A stretch of DNA of 64,000 nt from Cellulomonas fimi ATCC 484. Its GTDB lineage: Bacteria; Actinomycetota; Actinomycetes; Actinomycetales; Cellulomonadaceae. The notes beneath the pieces are model-generated. The model was not told the DNA's origin, did not search any database, and saw only the letters and a list, made by a program, of their open reading frames with translations. The DNA is taken from the NCBI RefSeq assembly GCF_000212695.1, contig NC_015514.1, forward strand, positions 744,001 through 808,000, read 5' to 3'. Of the stretch, positions 14,367-18,824 are shown piece after piece. The number at the start of each line of letters is the position of its first letter. Positions within the stretch are counted from its first letter, which is position 1. A program made the position numbers and the translations under genes.

Positions 14367-14639
14367 GTGGACACGACCGCCGTCCTCGACGTGGGCGTCG
14401 ACGCCCTGATCCTCGCCGCGAAGCTCTCCGCGCCCGTGCTGGTCACGGCTCTCGTCGTCGGCTTCGTCGTCTCCCTGCTGCAGTCCGTCACGCAGATCCA
14501 GGAGGTCACGCTCAGCTTCGTGCCGAAGGCCGTCGCCGCGGCCGTGGCGCTCGTCGTGTGCGGGCACTGGATGATCTCCGAGCTCGTGACGTTCACGCAC
14601 GAGCTGTTCGAGCGCATCCCGACCCTCGTCGGGGGCTGA
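14367..14639 (+). CDS. fliQ: Flagellar export gate protein FliQ
   Basis: Small export-gate subunit that packs around FliP. GTG 14367 gives 90 residues, the normal family length. Two membrane hairpin helices are visible (APVLVTALVVGFVVSLLQ and AVAAAVALVVCGHWMIS) around the conserved TQIQEVTLSFVPK loop, the FliQ signature. It starts five bases after fliP and stops five bases before fliR. Confidence 0.96.
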   Translation: MDTTAVLDVGVDALILAAKLSAPVLVTALVVGFVVSLLQSVTQIQEVTLSFVPKAVAAAVALVVCGHWMISELVTFTHELFERIPTLVGG

Positions 14640-14644
14640 GGCGC

Positions 14645-15412
14645 GTGGACCCGATCAGCATCACGCTGCCCGTGCAGGCCGTCGAGACGACGATGCTCGC
14701 GAGCGTCCGCATGGCCGCGTTCCTCGTGATCGCGCCGCCGTTCTCGCAGCGCGCCGTCCCGCCGTTCGTCAAGGTCGCGCTCGCGCTCGGCCTCGCGCTC
14801 GCGGTCGCGCCCCGGCTCGAGCCCGTGCCGTCCGACACGACGCCCGCGTTCGTCGGCGCGCTCGTCGCGCAGGCGGTCATCGGCGCGGGGCTCGGGTTCC
14901 TCGTCTCGCTCGTGTTCTCCGCGGTGCAGTCCGCGGGCTCGCTCATCGACCTGTTCGGCGGCTTCCAGCTCGCGACGGCCTACGACCCGCTGAGCCAGAC
15001 GAGCGGCGCGCAGTTCGGGCGGCTCTACCAGATGACGGCGCTCGTGCTCCTGTTCGCCTCCGACGCGTACCAGGTCGTCGTCGCCGGGCTCGTGCGGACG
15101 TTCGACGCGCTCCCGCTCGGCGCGCTGCTCGACCCCGCCGCGCTCGCCTCGACCCTCACCGAGGGCCTCACGCAGATGTTCCTCGCGGCGCTGCAGATCG
15201 CCGGTCCGCTGCTGGTCGTGCTGTTCCTCGCCGACGTCGGCCTGGGTCTGCTGACCCGCGTCTCGCCCGCGCTCAACGCGTTCGCGATGGGCTTCCCGCT
15301 GAAGATCCTGCTCACGCTCTCGTTCGGCTCGCTCGCCTTCCTCGCGTTGCCGGGCGTCGTCGAGTCCCTCGCCGGGCGCTCGGTGCGGGAGATGCTCGGG
15401 GTGCTCCCGTGA
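14645..15412 (+). CDS. fliR: Flagellar export gate protein FliR
   Basis: Export-gate subunit completing the FliP5-FliQ4-FliR1 channel. The 255-residue product from GTG 14645 has six or so hydrophobic helices; APPFSQRAVPPFVKVALALGLA and the AYDPLSQTSG segment are typical of FliR, as is ALNAFAMGFPLKILLTL near the C terminus (each quoted in short parts). Its TGA (15410-15412) overlaps a GTG at 15409 that opens the first of three tandem mini-ORFs leading to flhB. Confidence 0.95.
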   Translation: MDPISITLPVQAVETTMLASVRMAAFLVIAPPFSQRAVPPFVKVALALGLALAVAPRLEPVPSDTTPAFVGALVAQAVIGAGLGFLVSLVFSAVQSAGSLIDLFGGFQLATAYDPLSQTSGAQFGRLYQMTALVLLFASDAYQVVVAGLVRTFDALPLGALLDPAALASTLTEGLTQMFLAALQIAGPLLVVLFLADVGLGLLTRVSPALNAFAMGFPLKILLTLSFGSLAFLALPGVVESLAGRSVREMLGVLP

Positions 15413-15567
15413 GCGCGCCGGAGGGCGCGCGCGCCCGGATGTTCGCGAGCAGGAGGGCACAGTGAGCGCGCCGGAGGGCGCACGCGCCCGGAGGCTCGCG
15501 AGCAGGAGGGCACAGTGAGCGCGCCGGAGGGCGCGCGCGCCCGGAGGTTCGCGAGCAGGAGGGCACA
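15409..15567 (+). repeat. Three tandem 53-bp repeats between fliR and flhB
   Basis: Three head-to-tail copies begin at 15409, 15462 and 15515, period exactly 53 bases, differing by a few substitutions. A fourth copy's first bases form the flhB start at 15568. Each unit opens GTGAGCGCGCCGGAG, contains a GC palindrome (GGGCGCGCGCGCCC in copies 1 and 3, one base changed in copy 2) and ends with the ribosome site AGGAGGG a few bases before the next GTG. The unit therefore carries a start codon at one end and a ribosome site at the other. Confidence 0.95.
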
Positions 15568-15571
15568 GTGA
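15409..15571 (+). other. Chain of three overlapping 18-codon mini-ORFs (15409-15465, 15462-15518, 15515-15571)
   Basis: Because the repeat period is one base short of 18 codons, each copy encodes an 18-residue peptide whose TGA overlaps the GTG of the next copy. The peptides are VSAPEGARARMFASRRAQ, VSAPEGARARRLASRRAQ and VSAPEGARARRFASRRAQ. The chain begins inside the fliR stop codon and ends on the flhB start, so ribosomes could pass from fliR to flhB by repeated stop/restart. Whether the peptides matter or only the coupling does is unknown. Confidence 0.5.
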
Positions 15572-16770
15572 GCGAAGGAGGAGACCGCACCGAGAAGGCC
15601 ACGCCTCAGCGGATGCGTGAGATCCGCCGCAAGGGCGGGCTCGGCCGGTCGCAGGACCTGTCCGCGTGGGTGGGCCTCGGCGCAGCCGCGGCGGTGCTGC
15701 CGCTCGTCGTCGACCGCGCGCGGGCGGCCGCGCTCGACCAGATGGCGGCGTTCCGCGACGTCGCCGCCGACCCCGACGGCACGGACGTCGTGCAGGTGCT
15801 GGGCGACGGCCTCGGGACGATCCTCACGACGCTGCTGCCGCTGTTCGCGGTCGGGGTGGTCGCGGCGGTCGCGGTGAGCGCCGCGCAGGGTGGCGTGCAC
15901 CTGCACCGCCTGCGGCTGCACGCCGACCACCTCAAGCCCAAGGGTGTCGCGAGCCGGCTCGTCGGCGGGCAGGCGTGGTGGCAGGGCATCAAGACGCTGC
16001 TCAAGACCGCGGCCGTCGCGCTCGTGCTGCTCGCCGCGGTGCAGGCCATCGCGCCCGCGCTGCTCGCGTCCGGCCGGCTGCCGCTGTCGCACCTCATCGG
16101 CATCGCCACCGACGGCACGGCGACCCTGCTGCGCACCGGCATCGCCGCGGGCGTGCTGCTCGCGGTCGCCGACGTCGTGGTCGTGTGGCGGCGCAACCGC
16201 AAGCAGACCCGCATGACGCTCCGCGAGGTCAAGGAGGAGCACAAGCGGACCGAGGGGGACCCGATGCTCAAGGGCGCGATCCGCTCCAAGCAGCTCGCGA
16301 TGAGCCGCAACCGCATGATGGCCGAGGTCGCGAACGCGGACGTCGTGCTCGTCAACCCGACGCACGTGGCCGTCGCGCTGCGCTACGAGCCGGGTACGGG
16401 CGCGCCGCGCGTCGTCGCCAAGGGCGCGGGCGCGGTCGCGGCCAAGATCCGCAGCGCCGCGTCCGACGCGCGCGTCCCCATGGTCGAGGACGTGCCCCTG
16501 GCCCGCGCGCTGCACGCCGCGTGCGAGCTCGGCCAGGAGATCCCCGCGCACCTGTTCACGGCCGTCGCGCGCGTCCTCGCGTTCGTCATGGCGCTGCGCC
16601 GCCGCGGCGCCGCGTCCGGCCAGCACCGCGTCCCCGGCGGCTCGACCCTGCCGCCCGACGACACCACCGACCACCGCGCGACGGCACGGGCCGCCGTGCG
16701 CGACGCCGCACGTGCCGGCCGCCGCCCCGCCGCCGCCGAGCCCCGCACCGCTCAGGAGACCTCCCGATGA
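15568..16770 (+). CDS. flhB: Flagellar export switch protein FlhB
   Basis: Membrane protein of the export gate whose self-cleavage switches substrate class from hook to filament. GTG 15568 follows AGGAGGG. The 400-residue product begins with the FlhB signature DRTEKATPQRMREIRRKGG, has four membrane helices, and the cytoplasmic autocleavage motif NPTH at residues 263-266. The C-terminal tail after about residue 350 is extended, basic and low complexity. Its stop overlaps the flhA ATG. Its translation is linked to fliR by the tandem mini-ORFs upstream. Confidence 0.97.
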   Translation: MSEGGDRTEKATPQRMREIRRKGGLGRSQDLSAWVGLGAAAAVLPLVVDRARAAALDQMAAFRDVAADPDGTDVVQVLGDGLGTILTTLLPLFAVGVVAAVAVSAAQGGVHLHRLRLHADHLKPKGVASRLVGGQAWWQGIKTLLKTAAVALVLLAAVQAIAPALLASGRLPLSHLIGIATDGTATLLRTGIAAGVLLAVADVVVVWRRNRKQTRMTLREVKEEHKRTEGDPMLKGAIRSKQLAMSRNRMMAEVANADVVLVNPTHVAVALRYEPGTGAPRVVAKGAGAVAAKIRSAASDARVPMVEDVPLARALHAACELGQEIPAHLFTAVARVLAFVMALRRRGAASGQHRVPGGSTLPPDDTTDHRATARAAVRDAARAGRRPAAAEPRTAQETSR

Positions 16771-18824
16771 AGTCCCGGTCCATCGCACCCATGGCGGTCC
16801 CCGCCGGCGTCGTCGGCATCGTGCTGCTGCTCGTCGTGCCGCTGCCCGCGGCGCTGCTCGACGTGCTCATCGCCGTCAACATCACGGCGTCGCTCGTGAT
16901 CCTGCTGACGTCGATGTACGTCAAGCGGCCGCTCGACTTCTCCGTCTTCCCGTCGCTGATCCTCGTGTTCACGCTGTTCCGGCTGGGCCTCAACGTGGCC
17001 TCGACCCGGCTCGTGCTGCGCGACGGCTACGCGGGGCAGGTCATCGAGGCGTTCGGGCACTTCGTCATCGGCGGCTCGCTCGTCATCGGCCTCGTGATCT
17101 TCCTGATCCTCGTGGTCATCCAGTTCGCGGTCATCACCAACGGTGCGGGCCGCGTCGCGGAGGTCGGGGCGCGGTTCACGCTCGACGCGATGCCCGGCAA
17201 GCAGATGGCGATCGACGCCGACCTCAACTCGGGCCTCATCGACGAGGACGAGGCGCGCCGCCGTCGCGCCGACGTGGCCGCGGAGGCCGACTTCTACGGC
17301 GCGATGGACGGTGGCTCGAAGTTCGTCAAGGGCGACGCGATCGCGGGCATCATCATCACGGTCATCAACCTCGTCGGCGGCTTCGTCATCGGCATGGTGC
17401 AGATGGGCATGTCGGCGGGCGAGTCGCTCCAGCGGTTCAGCCTGCTGACGATCGGCGACGGCCTCGTCACGCAGATCCCCGCGCTGCTGCTCTCGGTGTC
17501 CACCGGCATCGTCGTCACGCGCGCCACGGCCGAGGGCGACATGGGGACCGCGGCCGCGAAGCAGCTCGGCCAGTCCCGCACCGCGCTGCTCATCTCCGGC
17601 GGCGCCGCCGTCGCCCTCGCGCTGCTGCCCGGGATGCCGAAGCTGCCGTTCCTGCTGGTCGGCGCGACGCTCATCCTCGTCGCGCAGCGCGTCAAGGCCC
17701 GCGAGCAGCGCGAGGCCGACGCGGCGGCGGCCACCCCGGCGGCGGCCGCGGTCGCGGCGCCGTCGGACACCCCCGAGCAGCTCATCGAGCAGATGCGCGT
17801 CCACACGCTCGAGATCCTGCTCGCGCCCGACCTGGTCGACCTCGTGGGCACGGGCCCGGACCAGGACCTGCTGGCGCGCGTGCGCGGGCTGCGCCGCAAG
17901 ACGGCCATGGAGCTCGGCATCGTCGTGCCGCCGGTCCGCACACGCGACTCCGTCGACCTGCCCCGCGCGACCTACGTCGTGAAGATCGCCGGCGTCGAGG
18001 TCGGCCGCGGCGAGGCGCCCGCGGGGTACATGCTCGCGCTCGGCGACGACCTGTCCGCGCTGCCCGGCACCACGGTGCACGAGCCGGTGTTCGGCCTGCC
18101 CGGCAAGTGGGTGCCGTCCGAGCTGCGGCACGCCGCGGAGATGTCCGGCGCGACGGTCGTCGACCGCGTGTCCGTGCTCATCACGCACCTCGGCGCGCTC
18201 ATCACGCAGAACGCCGCGCGCCTCCTGGGCCGCGAGGACGTGCGGGTGCTCACCGAGTCCGTGAAGAAGGTCAACCCGTCCGTCGTCGAGGAGCTCGTGC
18301 CGTCGCTGCTCAGCCTCGGCGAGGTGCAGCGCGTCCTGCAGGGTCTGCTCACCGAGGAGGTCCCGATCCGCGACCTGGGCCGCATCTACGAGGCGCTCGC
18401 GCTGCGCGCCAAGCTCTCGACCGACCCCGAGGGGCTCGTCGAGGCGGCGCGCGGCGCGCTGGGTCCCGCGCTCGCCGCGCCCTACGTCCAGGACGGTGTG
18501 CTGCGCGTCCTGACGCTCGACCCGGCTCTCGAGCAGACGCTCGTCGAGTCCCTGCGGCCAGGCGACGGCGGCACGCAGCTGCTCGTCGACCCGACGCGTG
18601 TCGAGGCCGTGCTGCACCAGCTGCGCGCCGCGGTCGCCGACGCGGAGGGTGACGGCCGGACCGTCGTGCTCGTGTGCGCGCCGGTCGTGCGGCCCGCGCT
18701 GCGCCGGCTCGTCGCGCTCGGCCTGCCGCGCCTGCCCGTGCTGTCCTACGCCGAGGTGACCGGCGGCGGCCTGACCGTCGAGACCGTGGGGGTGGTGCGC
18801 GGTGACCACGCGATTGCTGCTTGA
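16767..18824 (+). CDS. flhA: Flagellar export gate protein FlhA
   Basis: Large export-gate protein that docks chaperone-substrate complexes on a cytoplasmic nonameric ring. ATG 16767 overlaps the flhB stop. The 685-residue product has about eight N-terminal membrane helices; the FHIPEP-family core is visible as FSVFPSLILVFTLFRLGLN, RVAEVGARFTLDAMPGKQMA and IDADLNSGLIDEDEARRRR (quoted in parts). The C-terminal cytoplasmic domain starts near residue 330. Length is normal. The next gene begins 23 bases before this one ends. Confidence 0.97.
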   Translation: MKSRSIAPMAVPAGVVGIVLLLVVPLPAALLDVLIAVNITASLVILLTSMYVKRPLDFSVFPSLILVFTLFRLGLNVASTRLVLRDGYAGQVIEAFGHFVIGGSLVIGLVIFLILVVIQFAVITNGAGRVAEVGARFTLDAMPGKQMAIDADLNSGLIDEDEARRRRADVAAEADFYGAMDGGSKFVKGDAIAGIIITVINLVGGFVIGMVQMGMSAGESLQRFSLLTIGDGLVTQIPALLLSVSTGIVVTRATAEGDMGTAAAKQLGQSRTALLISGGAAVALALLPGMPKLPFLLVGATLILVAQRVKAREQREADAAAATPAAAAVAAPSDTPEQLIEQMRVHTLEILLAPDLVDLVGTGPDQDLLARVRGLRRKTAMELGIVVPPVRTRDSVDLPRATYVVKIAGVEVGRGEAPAGYMLALGDDLSALPGTTVHEPVFGLPGKWVPSELRHAAEMSGATVVDRVSVLITHLGALITQNAARLLGREDVRVLTESVKKVNPSVVEELVPSLLSLGEVQRVLQGLLTEEVPIRDLGRIYEALALRAKLSTDPEGLVEAARGALGPALAAPYVQDGVLRVLTLDPALEQTLVESLRPGDGGTQLLVDPTRVEAVLHQLRAAVADAEGDGRTVVLVCAPVVRPALRRLVALGLPRLPVLSYAEVTGGGLTVETVGVVRGDHAIAA

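Follow-up and report, generated by a model that had tools for sequence, protein, structure and literature searches.

The flagellar genes fliR and flhB of Cellulomonas fimi ATCC 484 are separated by three copies of a 53-bp unit that is probably a short non-autonomous insertion element of Cellulomonas, occupying RTGA stop/start overlaps of operon genes. Units of this family are dispersed over gene junctions of the genus, begin on the stop codon of an upstream frame, have empty counterparts in related genomes, keep a defined frame geometry toward the downstream gene and are conserved as DNA rather than as peptide. Since the right edge of a unit recreates its left edge, head-to-tail growth to two or three units keeps the arrangement, and such amplification would be the origin of the triple array.

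Three units between fliR and flhB

The stretch of DNA that was analysed (hereafter, the window) comprises 64,000 nucleotides of contig NC_015514.1 (positions 744,001 to 808,000). Within it, the fliR-flhB gap consists of three head-to-tail 53-bp units (15409-15567) with three substitutions among them, one of which is silent. Tandem Repeats Finder reports the array at 15409-15574 (period 53, 3.1 copies, 95% matches), and its score of 311 is the highest of the 36 rows returned for the window. Each unit opens with GTGA, contains a frame of 18 codons and closes with AGGAGGGCACA. The GTGA of the following unit, or of flhB in the case of unit 3, comes next, and AGGAGGG lies at -11 to -5 relative to its GTG. 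The microrepeat GTGAGCG is present at both unit edges. The features of the region are as follows:

14558..15412, forward strand: fliR, as the longest open reading frame (Pfam Bac_export_1, 5e-55)
15409..15461, forward strand: element unit 1, 53 bp (sequence, Tandem Repeats Finder, model search)
15409..15465, forward strand: mini-ORF 1, 18 codons, stop overlapping the unit 2 GTG (frame reading)
15413..15446, forward strand: site of the family consensus hairpin in unit 1, with equal offset in units 2 and 3 (folding, alignment)
15451..15457, forward strand: unit 1 Shine-Dalgarno AGGAGGG (sequence, Shine-Dalgarno energy)
15462..15514, forward strand: element unit 2, 53 bp (sequence, Tandem Repeats Finder, model search)
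15462..15518, forward strand: mini-ORF 2, 18 codons, stop overlapping the unit 3 GTG (frame reading)
15504..15510, forward strand: unit 2 Shine-Dalgarno AGGAGGG (sequence, Shine-Dalgarno energy)
15515..15567, forward strand: element unit 3, 53 bp (sequence, Tandem Repeats Finder, model search)
15515..15571, forward strand: mini-ORF 3, 18 codons, stop overlapping the flhB GTG (frame reading)
15557..15563, forward strand: unit 3 Shine-Dalgarno AGGAGGG, placed for flhB (sequence, Shine-Dalgarno energy)
15568..16770, forward strand: flhB, GTG start overlapping the mini-ORF 3 stop (Pfam Bac_export_2, 3.2e-96)

The real fliR start probably lies downstream of 14558. The gene ends in CCC GTGA, where the stop codon TGA (15410-15412) shares bases with the first GTG (15409), and the TGA of mini-ORF 3 (15569-15571) overlaps the flhB GTG at 15568 in the same way. 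The three mini-ORF peptides are VSAPEGARARMFASRRAQ, VSAPEGARARRLASRRAQ and VSAPEGARARRFASRRAQ, with residues 11 and 12 as the only differences. A preliminary description of this DNA had claimed three 53-bp copies, each with a GTG start and AGGAGGG, GTGA stop/start overlaps at fliR, between the units and at flhB, peptides that differ at two positions, and the FliR and FlhB identities; the sequence together with Tandem Repeats Finder, the coordinates, the translations and Pfam, respectively, bear these points out. No Rfam entry reached its gathering score over 14500-16800.

A dispersed family at Cellulomonas gene junctions

The preliminary description had also proposed that the 53-mer be sought in other genomes, and it is present at other gene junctions in other Cellulomonas genomes. 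When the 159-bp array was compared by blastn with 81 genomes of the genus, matches at E <= 0.001 came from 25 genomes, and nine of these genomes were accepted (E 3e-45 in G001 to 1.5e-5 in G041); 14 of the matched loci were inspected and the rest were covered by a core-pattern scan, most of the unaccepted matches being weak. A covariance model was then used, for which 15 of the 18 units served as the input, so that its search is not independent for those 15; it returned 12 of the 81 genomes at E <= 0.01 before rows were dropped. The dropped rows were G051 and G037 (E 0.006; the G037 frame ending at the match has 35 open codons), an extra G001 match with a start lacking RTGA (E 9e-4), and G036, where the match is degenerate and in frame with transglutaminase. 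A strict pattern independent of the model gave 12 matches in the 81 genomes, compared to one for the reversed control. In total, the family comprises 18 units at 13 sites, representing eight kinds of junction in nine of the 81 Cellulomonas genomes:

fliR/flhB: the window genome (G000), 1 site
argS/lysA, hisB/next gene and FecCD/next gene: G001, 3 sites
hisC/hisB: G023, 1 site
alpha-E/transglutaminase: G006, G040, G060 and G080, 4 sites
FecCD/FecCD: G074 and G080, 2 sites
YbjN/YbjN: G040, 1 site
between two ABC permease genes: G041, 1 site

The FecCD junctions were pooled to give eight kinds. Junction genes were named by Pfam, with argS, lysA and hisC being our reading of Pfam families and sequences, and the gene after hisB in G001 has no Pfam match. 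At all 13 sites, the unit begins on the stop codon that closes a long frame upstream. Units measure 53-56 bp, with one site showing 80-bp spacing, and form arrays of one to three; each carrier genome holds one to three sites. The suggestion that each repeat is a modular cassette therefore stands as far as geometry is concerned, as arrays of one, two and three units are found at different sites. The further idea in the preliminary description, that copy number could tune the dose of FlhB relative to FliR, is speculative, the collections searched comprising one genome per species.

The family appears confined to the genus in the collections searched. Among 221 genomes of the taxonomic family (25 genera), the nine carriers are all Cellulomonas, and most of the named relatives identified through FlhB also belong to this genus. 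An order sample of 396 genomes yielded two genus members and G289 (E 9e-4), which was not counted after inspection. With model R1, a phylum sample of 396 genomes yielded the window genome itself and G709 (E 8e-5), also not counted after inspection, and thus no second convincing carrier. As the number of candidates scored for each genome in these order, family and phylum searches was limited to between 14 and 69, some weak copies may have escaped notice. The window genome contains no further convincing copy: its next match has an E-value of 0.076, and neither this nor the following one is a copy by eye. A plasmid or phage origin was also considered and set aside, as positions 15400-15580 had no match in 72,556 plasmid and 50,697 phage records and the strict core pattern had none in IMG/VR.

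The window genome units are closest to the argS/lysA units of G001 (85-89% identity), and G001 is not among the nearest relatives of the window genome in a transglutaminase tree. On average, units at different loci of the same genome are 83% identical (10 pairs, 8 of which involve arrays), compared to 75% for units differing in both genome and locus (124 pairs), which speaks for the favoured reading; against it, the 83% is barely higher than the 79% for one locus in different genomes (12 pairs).

Junctions that are filled in one genome are empty in others. At fliR/flhB, the unit is absent from all 32 other Cellulomonas genomes read (FlhB is present in 57 genomes of the genus, and the junction was read in 33 of them, including the window genome). 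In 30 of the 32, comprising 25 of 27 resolved genus genomes and five of five more, the two genes overlap directly by 4 nt. A first survey of this junction covered 72 loci which, after setting aside 3 unresolved loci and 16 duplicates, left 53 distinct junctions, 39 of them with the 4-nt overlap; L094 in this survey is a wrong motif match. The four nearest relatives of the window genome (G004, G015, G016 and G002), according to a tree built from one protein, transglutaminase, are all empty at fliR/flhB, making gain of the unit on the window genome's own branch the simplest reading. Flanks of the window genome junction are identical to those of the four empty sites at 66-77 of 102 positions, with one of the four misplaced by a length difference. 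We infer that the element was inserted here, rather than being lost elsewhere.

Closer pairs of filled and empty sites were found at other junctions. At alpha-E/transglutaminase, 75 of 81 genomes gave some match and 66 a strong one; the junction was read in 65 of these 66, of which 45 have a direct overlap and four have the element. G080 holds exactly 53 bp more at this junction than its sister G074 (tree support 98/84), and the flanks agree at 115 of 120 positions (96%). Any position within GGAGGCACTGTGAGC is equivalent for the insert, which means that loss between 15-bp direct repeats is also allowed, and judging from these sequences either gain or precise loss is possible for this pair. At hisC/hisB (hisB coverage, 30 of 81 genomes), G023 holds 54 bp that are absent from G043, with flanks matching at 112 of 120 positions and a placement that is ambiguous over GTGAG. 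The comparison for the hisB/next gene site of G001 is weaker (59-63 of 75).

Reading frames, hairpin and Shine-Dalgarno tail

The relay, in which the mini-ORF ends on the downstream start, is present at 11 of the 13 sites, ten of them with a 4-nt overlap and one with TGATG (G001 FecCD). At the other two sites, both with 54-bp units, the reading frame continues without a stop into the gene that follows: three units at argS/lysA of G001 are in frame into LysA (L033:1501-1700), and the single unit at hisC/hisB of G023 is open into HisB. The third, breaking frame occurs at none of the 13 sites. Changes in length are consistent with this geometry, as the G006 site keeps the relay with a loop 3 bp longer and a total spacing of 80 bp, and two G001 units offset a loop longer by one base with a tail shorter by one base to give 53 bp again. 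The preliminary description held that repeats whose length breaks the GTGA overlap in other strains would count against the relay. Such lengths were found in the form of the 54-bp units of G001 argS/lysA and G023 hisC/hisB; as the frame of these units runs on into the next gene, a possible fusion, and not a broken start, takes the place of the relay.

LysA of G001 may carry an N-terminal 18-residue tandem repeat derived from its in-frame units. The hisC/hisB junction, at which G023 has its insertion, is occupied in G001 by a degenerate element-like spacer of 54 bp in frame with HisB (L057:855-912, also L175). The alpha-E/transglutaminase junction of G036 (L112, L167) contains a degenerate element-like stretch in frame, as if absorbed as the transglutaminase N-terminus.

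Each unit begins with GTGAG, followed by an imperfect hairpin, a CGCGA block and a Shine-Dalgarno tail before the next RTGA, and the core is the best conserved portion. The consensus hairpin has 13 pairs, joining columns 5-19 with 27-41 (alignment A3). Stem covariation amounts to 8 cells changed on both sides, whereas shuffling gave 3.9 (with a value this high in 2 of 500 shuffles), and comes mostly from pair 8/38 (A-U 3, C-G 3, G-C 2), which is not formed in 10 of the 18 units; neither the number of pairs that covary nor the number of pair types stood out from the shuffles (160 and 229 of 500). In single-unit folds, the consensus stem is optimal in four of eight, with two window genome units and two G001 units preferring other hairpins, and z-scores range from -1.9 to +0.2; the whole array folds with a z-score of -4.6 relative to shuffles, as expected of repeats. 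Taken together, the alignments and folds lend modest support to a conserved structure. Terminal inverted repeats were not found in the three units tested (3-4 of 15 end bases match).

At flhB, the Shine-Dalgarno match is -10.8 kcal/mol with the unit end, compared to -6.3 kcal/mol at the native start position, and native flhB starts in 13 relatives average -9.2 kcal/mol. For nine of the 12 other sites, the gene-proximal Shine-Dalgarno was measured and proved stronger by >1 kcal/mol at three, weaker by >1 kcal/mol at three and little changed at three. The weakest tail (-2.8) belongs to G023, whose unit reads on into HisB without any need for a new start.

This anatomy suggests how an insertion could leave an operon intact. 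Following insertion, the upstream gene would still stop on RTGA at the left edge of the element, and the end of the element would offer a Shine-Dalgarno and then a new RTGA, such that the downstream gene keeps a stop/start overlap. A coupled ribosome could restart on the element GTG, read 18 codons, stop at the downstream RTGA and possibly restart there on the downstream gene, aided by the Shine-Dalgarno that the unit brings; between the two overlaps, the conserved hairpin-forming core and the 18-codon frame would serve as the ribosome's path. The mini-ORFs are thus predicted from sequence to be translated, and tolerance of insertion, rather than regulatory benefit, would account for the geometry.

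Origin of the units and comparison with known repeats

The preliminary description spoke of a tandem triplication with copy number open to slippage, and one could suppose a local event only, in which slippage between the GTGAGCG microrepeats duplicated the fliR-flhB spacer and the length of the unit incidentally gave rise to the relay. The microrepeats at both edges and the near identity of the three units agree with this, as does the transglutaminase junction of G068, which has a local 20-bp tandem duplication of like geometry. However, the unit is also found at seven other kinds of junction, and the relatives read have no comparable fliR/flhB spacer to duplicate. The dispersed copies refute local duplication as the origin, making a purely local event very improbable; slippage accounts only for the step from one unit to three, and the triplication alone is local. 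A function for the 18-residue peptide, raised in the preliminary description and taken here as that of a leader or secreted peptide, is extremely doubtful. All 18 units do have an open frame with similar first residues. However, in the six units with longer loops (five from G001 and one from G023) the conserved CGCGA block of the 3' half falls in a different frame from that of the other 12 (block positions for G041 and G023 were corrected by eye), and at two sites the frame continues into LysA or HisB. That six of 18 units read the conserved half in another frame indicates that the nucleic acid is conserved and not the peptide.

Conservation of the core, the covariation at columns 8/38 and the stronger flhB Shine-Dalgarno would fit a fixed regulatory element, either an RNA hairpin with a strong Shine-Dalgarno or a protein-binding site, that is selected at some junctions and spread by recombination. 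We consider this unlikely, as the element is patchy even between sister genomes, its host genes are unrelated (flagella, his, argS/lysA, iron transport), pair 8/38 is missing from more than half of the units with the two other covariation measures at shuffle level, and the Shine-Dalgarno changes in both directions over the nine other sites. Quite improbable, too, is an element of the REP or MITE type that depends on a Y1 transposase (RAYT or IS605-like) or on another transposase for its mobility. The imperfect hairpin after a fixed tetranucleotide, the exact insertion and the short length would agree with such an element, but Y1_Tnp (PF01797) is present in none of the nine carriers and in only one of the 81 genus genomes, leaving mobilisation by Y1/RAYT unsupported; moreover, the three units tested lack terminal inverted repeats, and copy numbers are far below the >100 per genome that PMC2817692 gives for REPs. 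It is possible that a transposase helper is extinct or absent.

The favoured reading, an insertion element sited at stop/start overlaps, closely matches the mode of the mycobacterial MIRUs, to which the units are likened here by description and geometry rather than by MIRU sequence. Supply and others reportedly proposed in 1997 that MIRUs entered DTGA sites by transposition. According to a 2025 review, MIRUs are apparently mobile and insert at start codons, with an internal ORF coupled at -4 nt to the gene (PMC12548453). Other reports describe three 77-bp MIRUs at senX3-regX3 in H37Rv, compared to two of 77 bp and one of 53 bp in CDC1551 (PMC4213456), 41 MIRU locations in M. tuberculosis H37Rv, and a MIRU-VNTR region at rnc-fpg1 that spans 279-358 bp in the tuberculosis complex and 1-54 bp in other mycobacteria (PMC2734929). 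The Cellulomonas element resembles MIRUs in being a short repeat (within 40-100 bp) that lies within operons over several junctions, at some of them in tandem arrays of few units, in having empty orthologous sites in related species and, as geometry only, in its insertion at overlaps with an internal ORF (upstream stop at 13 of 13 sites; 10 of 13 with a 4-nt overlap, one TGATG, two in frame). It differs in belonging to another genus, with all nine carriers among the 221 family genomes being Cellulomonas and none a mycobacterium, in having one to three sites per genome as opposed to 41, and in its conserved hairpin-forming core.

Other repeat families share fewer of these traits. REP/BIME sequences with RAYT are likewise short hairpin repeats between genes, whereas the Cellulomonas element has carriers without a Y1 transposase, few copies and a stop/start overlap as its site. 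The enterobacterial intergenic repeats RU-1 to RU-3 are also small mobile repeats able to contribute reading frames, but they are longer (103-168 bp) and MITE-like, with no tie to stop/start overlaps stated in the accessible part of their description (PMC2759123); the terminal inverted repeats of MITEs were absent from the three units tested here. Among the literature matches listed, in a search with subscription journals mostly outside its scope, we recognised no earlier description of such an element in Cellulomonas or outside mycobacteria.

A broader interpretation, possible but doubtful, is that the Cellulomonas units are a second, independently evolved lineage of overlap-targeting repeats, whose right edge recreates the target and which insert and multiply without breaking the operon; the likeness to MIRUs would in that case be due to convergence, and the relay spacers of unrelated sequence at these same junctions in further Cellulomonas would represent older, decayed or distinct families of this type. 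More generally, the findings suggest that the MIRU mode, with insertion at a stop/start overlap and coupling kept, is not peculiar to mycobacteria. The filled and empty Cellulomonas sites, with exact 53-bp differences and near-identical flanks, would allow direct tests of insertion tolerance, and could also be used to study a ribosome relay over multiple overlaps and the mode of element movement.

The generality of relay spacing was assessed with a simple gene caller on 2.0 Mb of G000, G036, G040 and G001 plus the window (1039 gene pairs, 1021 scored). For RTGA stops with spacers of 8-120 nt, the relay frame outnumbered the third frame by 38:14 (p 0.0012), with 110:81 (p 0.04) for YTGA and 13:14 for TAA/TAG control stops; in this scoring, two-unit arrays (G040, 106 bp) were counted as third frame despite relaying. 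The RTGA excess gave Fisher values of 0.054 relative to YTGA and 0.029 relative to both controls, and with NTGA starts only the counts were 23:6 vs 43:26 (Fisher 0.16). A general preference for relay spacers at RTGA stops is suggestive only, and, as the YTGA control is also skewed, we do not claim a general relay rule. YTGA stops at distances of 8-60 also favour one frame (69:34), possibly as a gene-caller artefact.

Relay spacers unrelated to the element were seen at two of the junctions. The fliR/flhB junction of G066 (L026:1430-1500) has a 56-bp spacer with ATGA at both ends and a single open mini-ORF that links the stop of fliR with the start of flhB, and its core occurs in no other of the 346 loci compared. 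In Puerhibacterium, a 17-bp fliR/flhB spacer relays by sequence reading. Five such spacers lie at the transglutaminase junction, of 35 bp in G038 (L160), 41 bp in G027 (L169), 32 bp in G058 (L172), 20 bp in G068 (L173) and 20 bp in G011 (L214), and two of these five share a tail.
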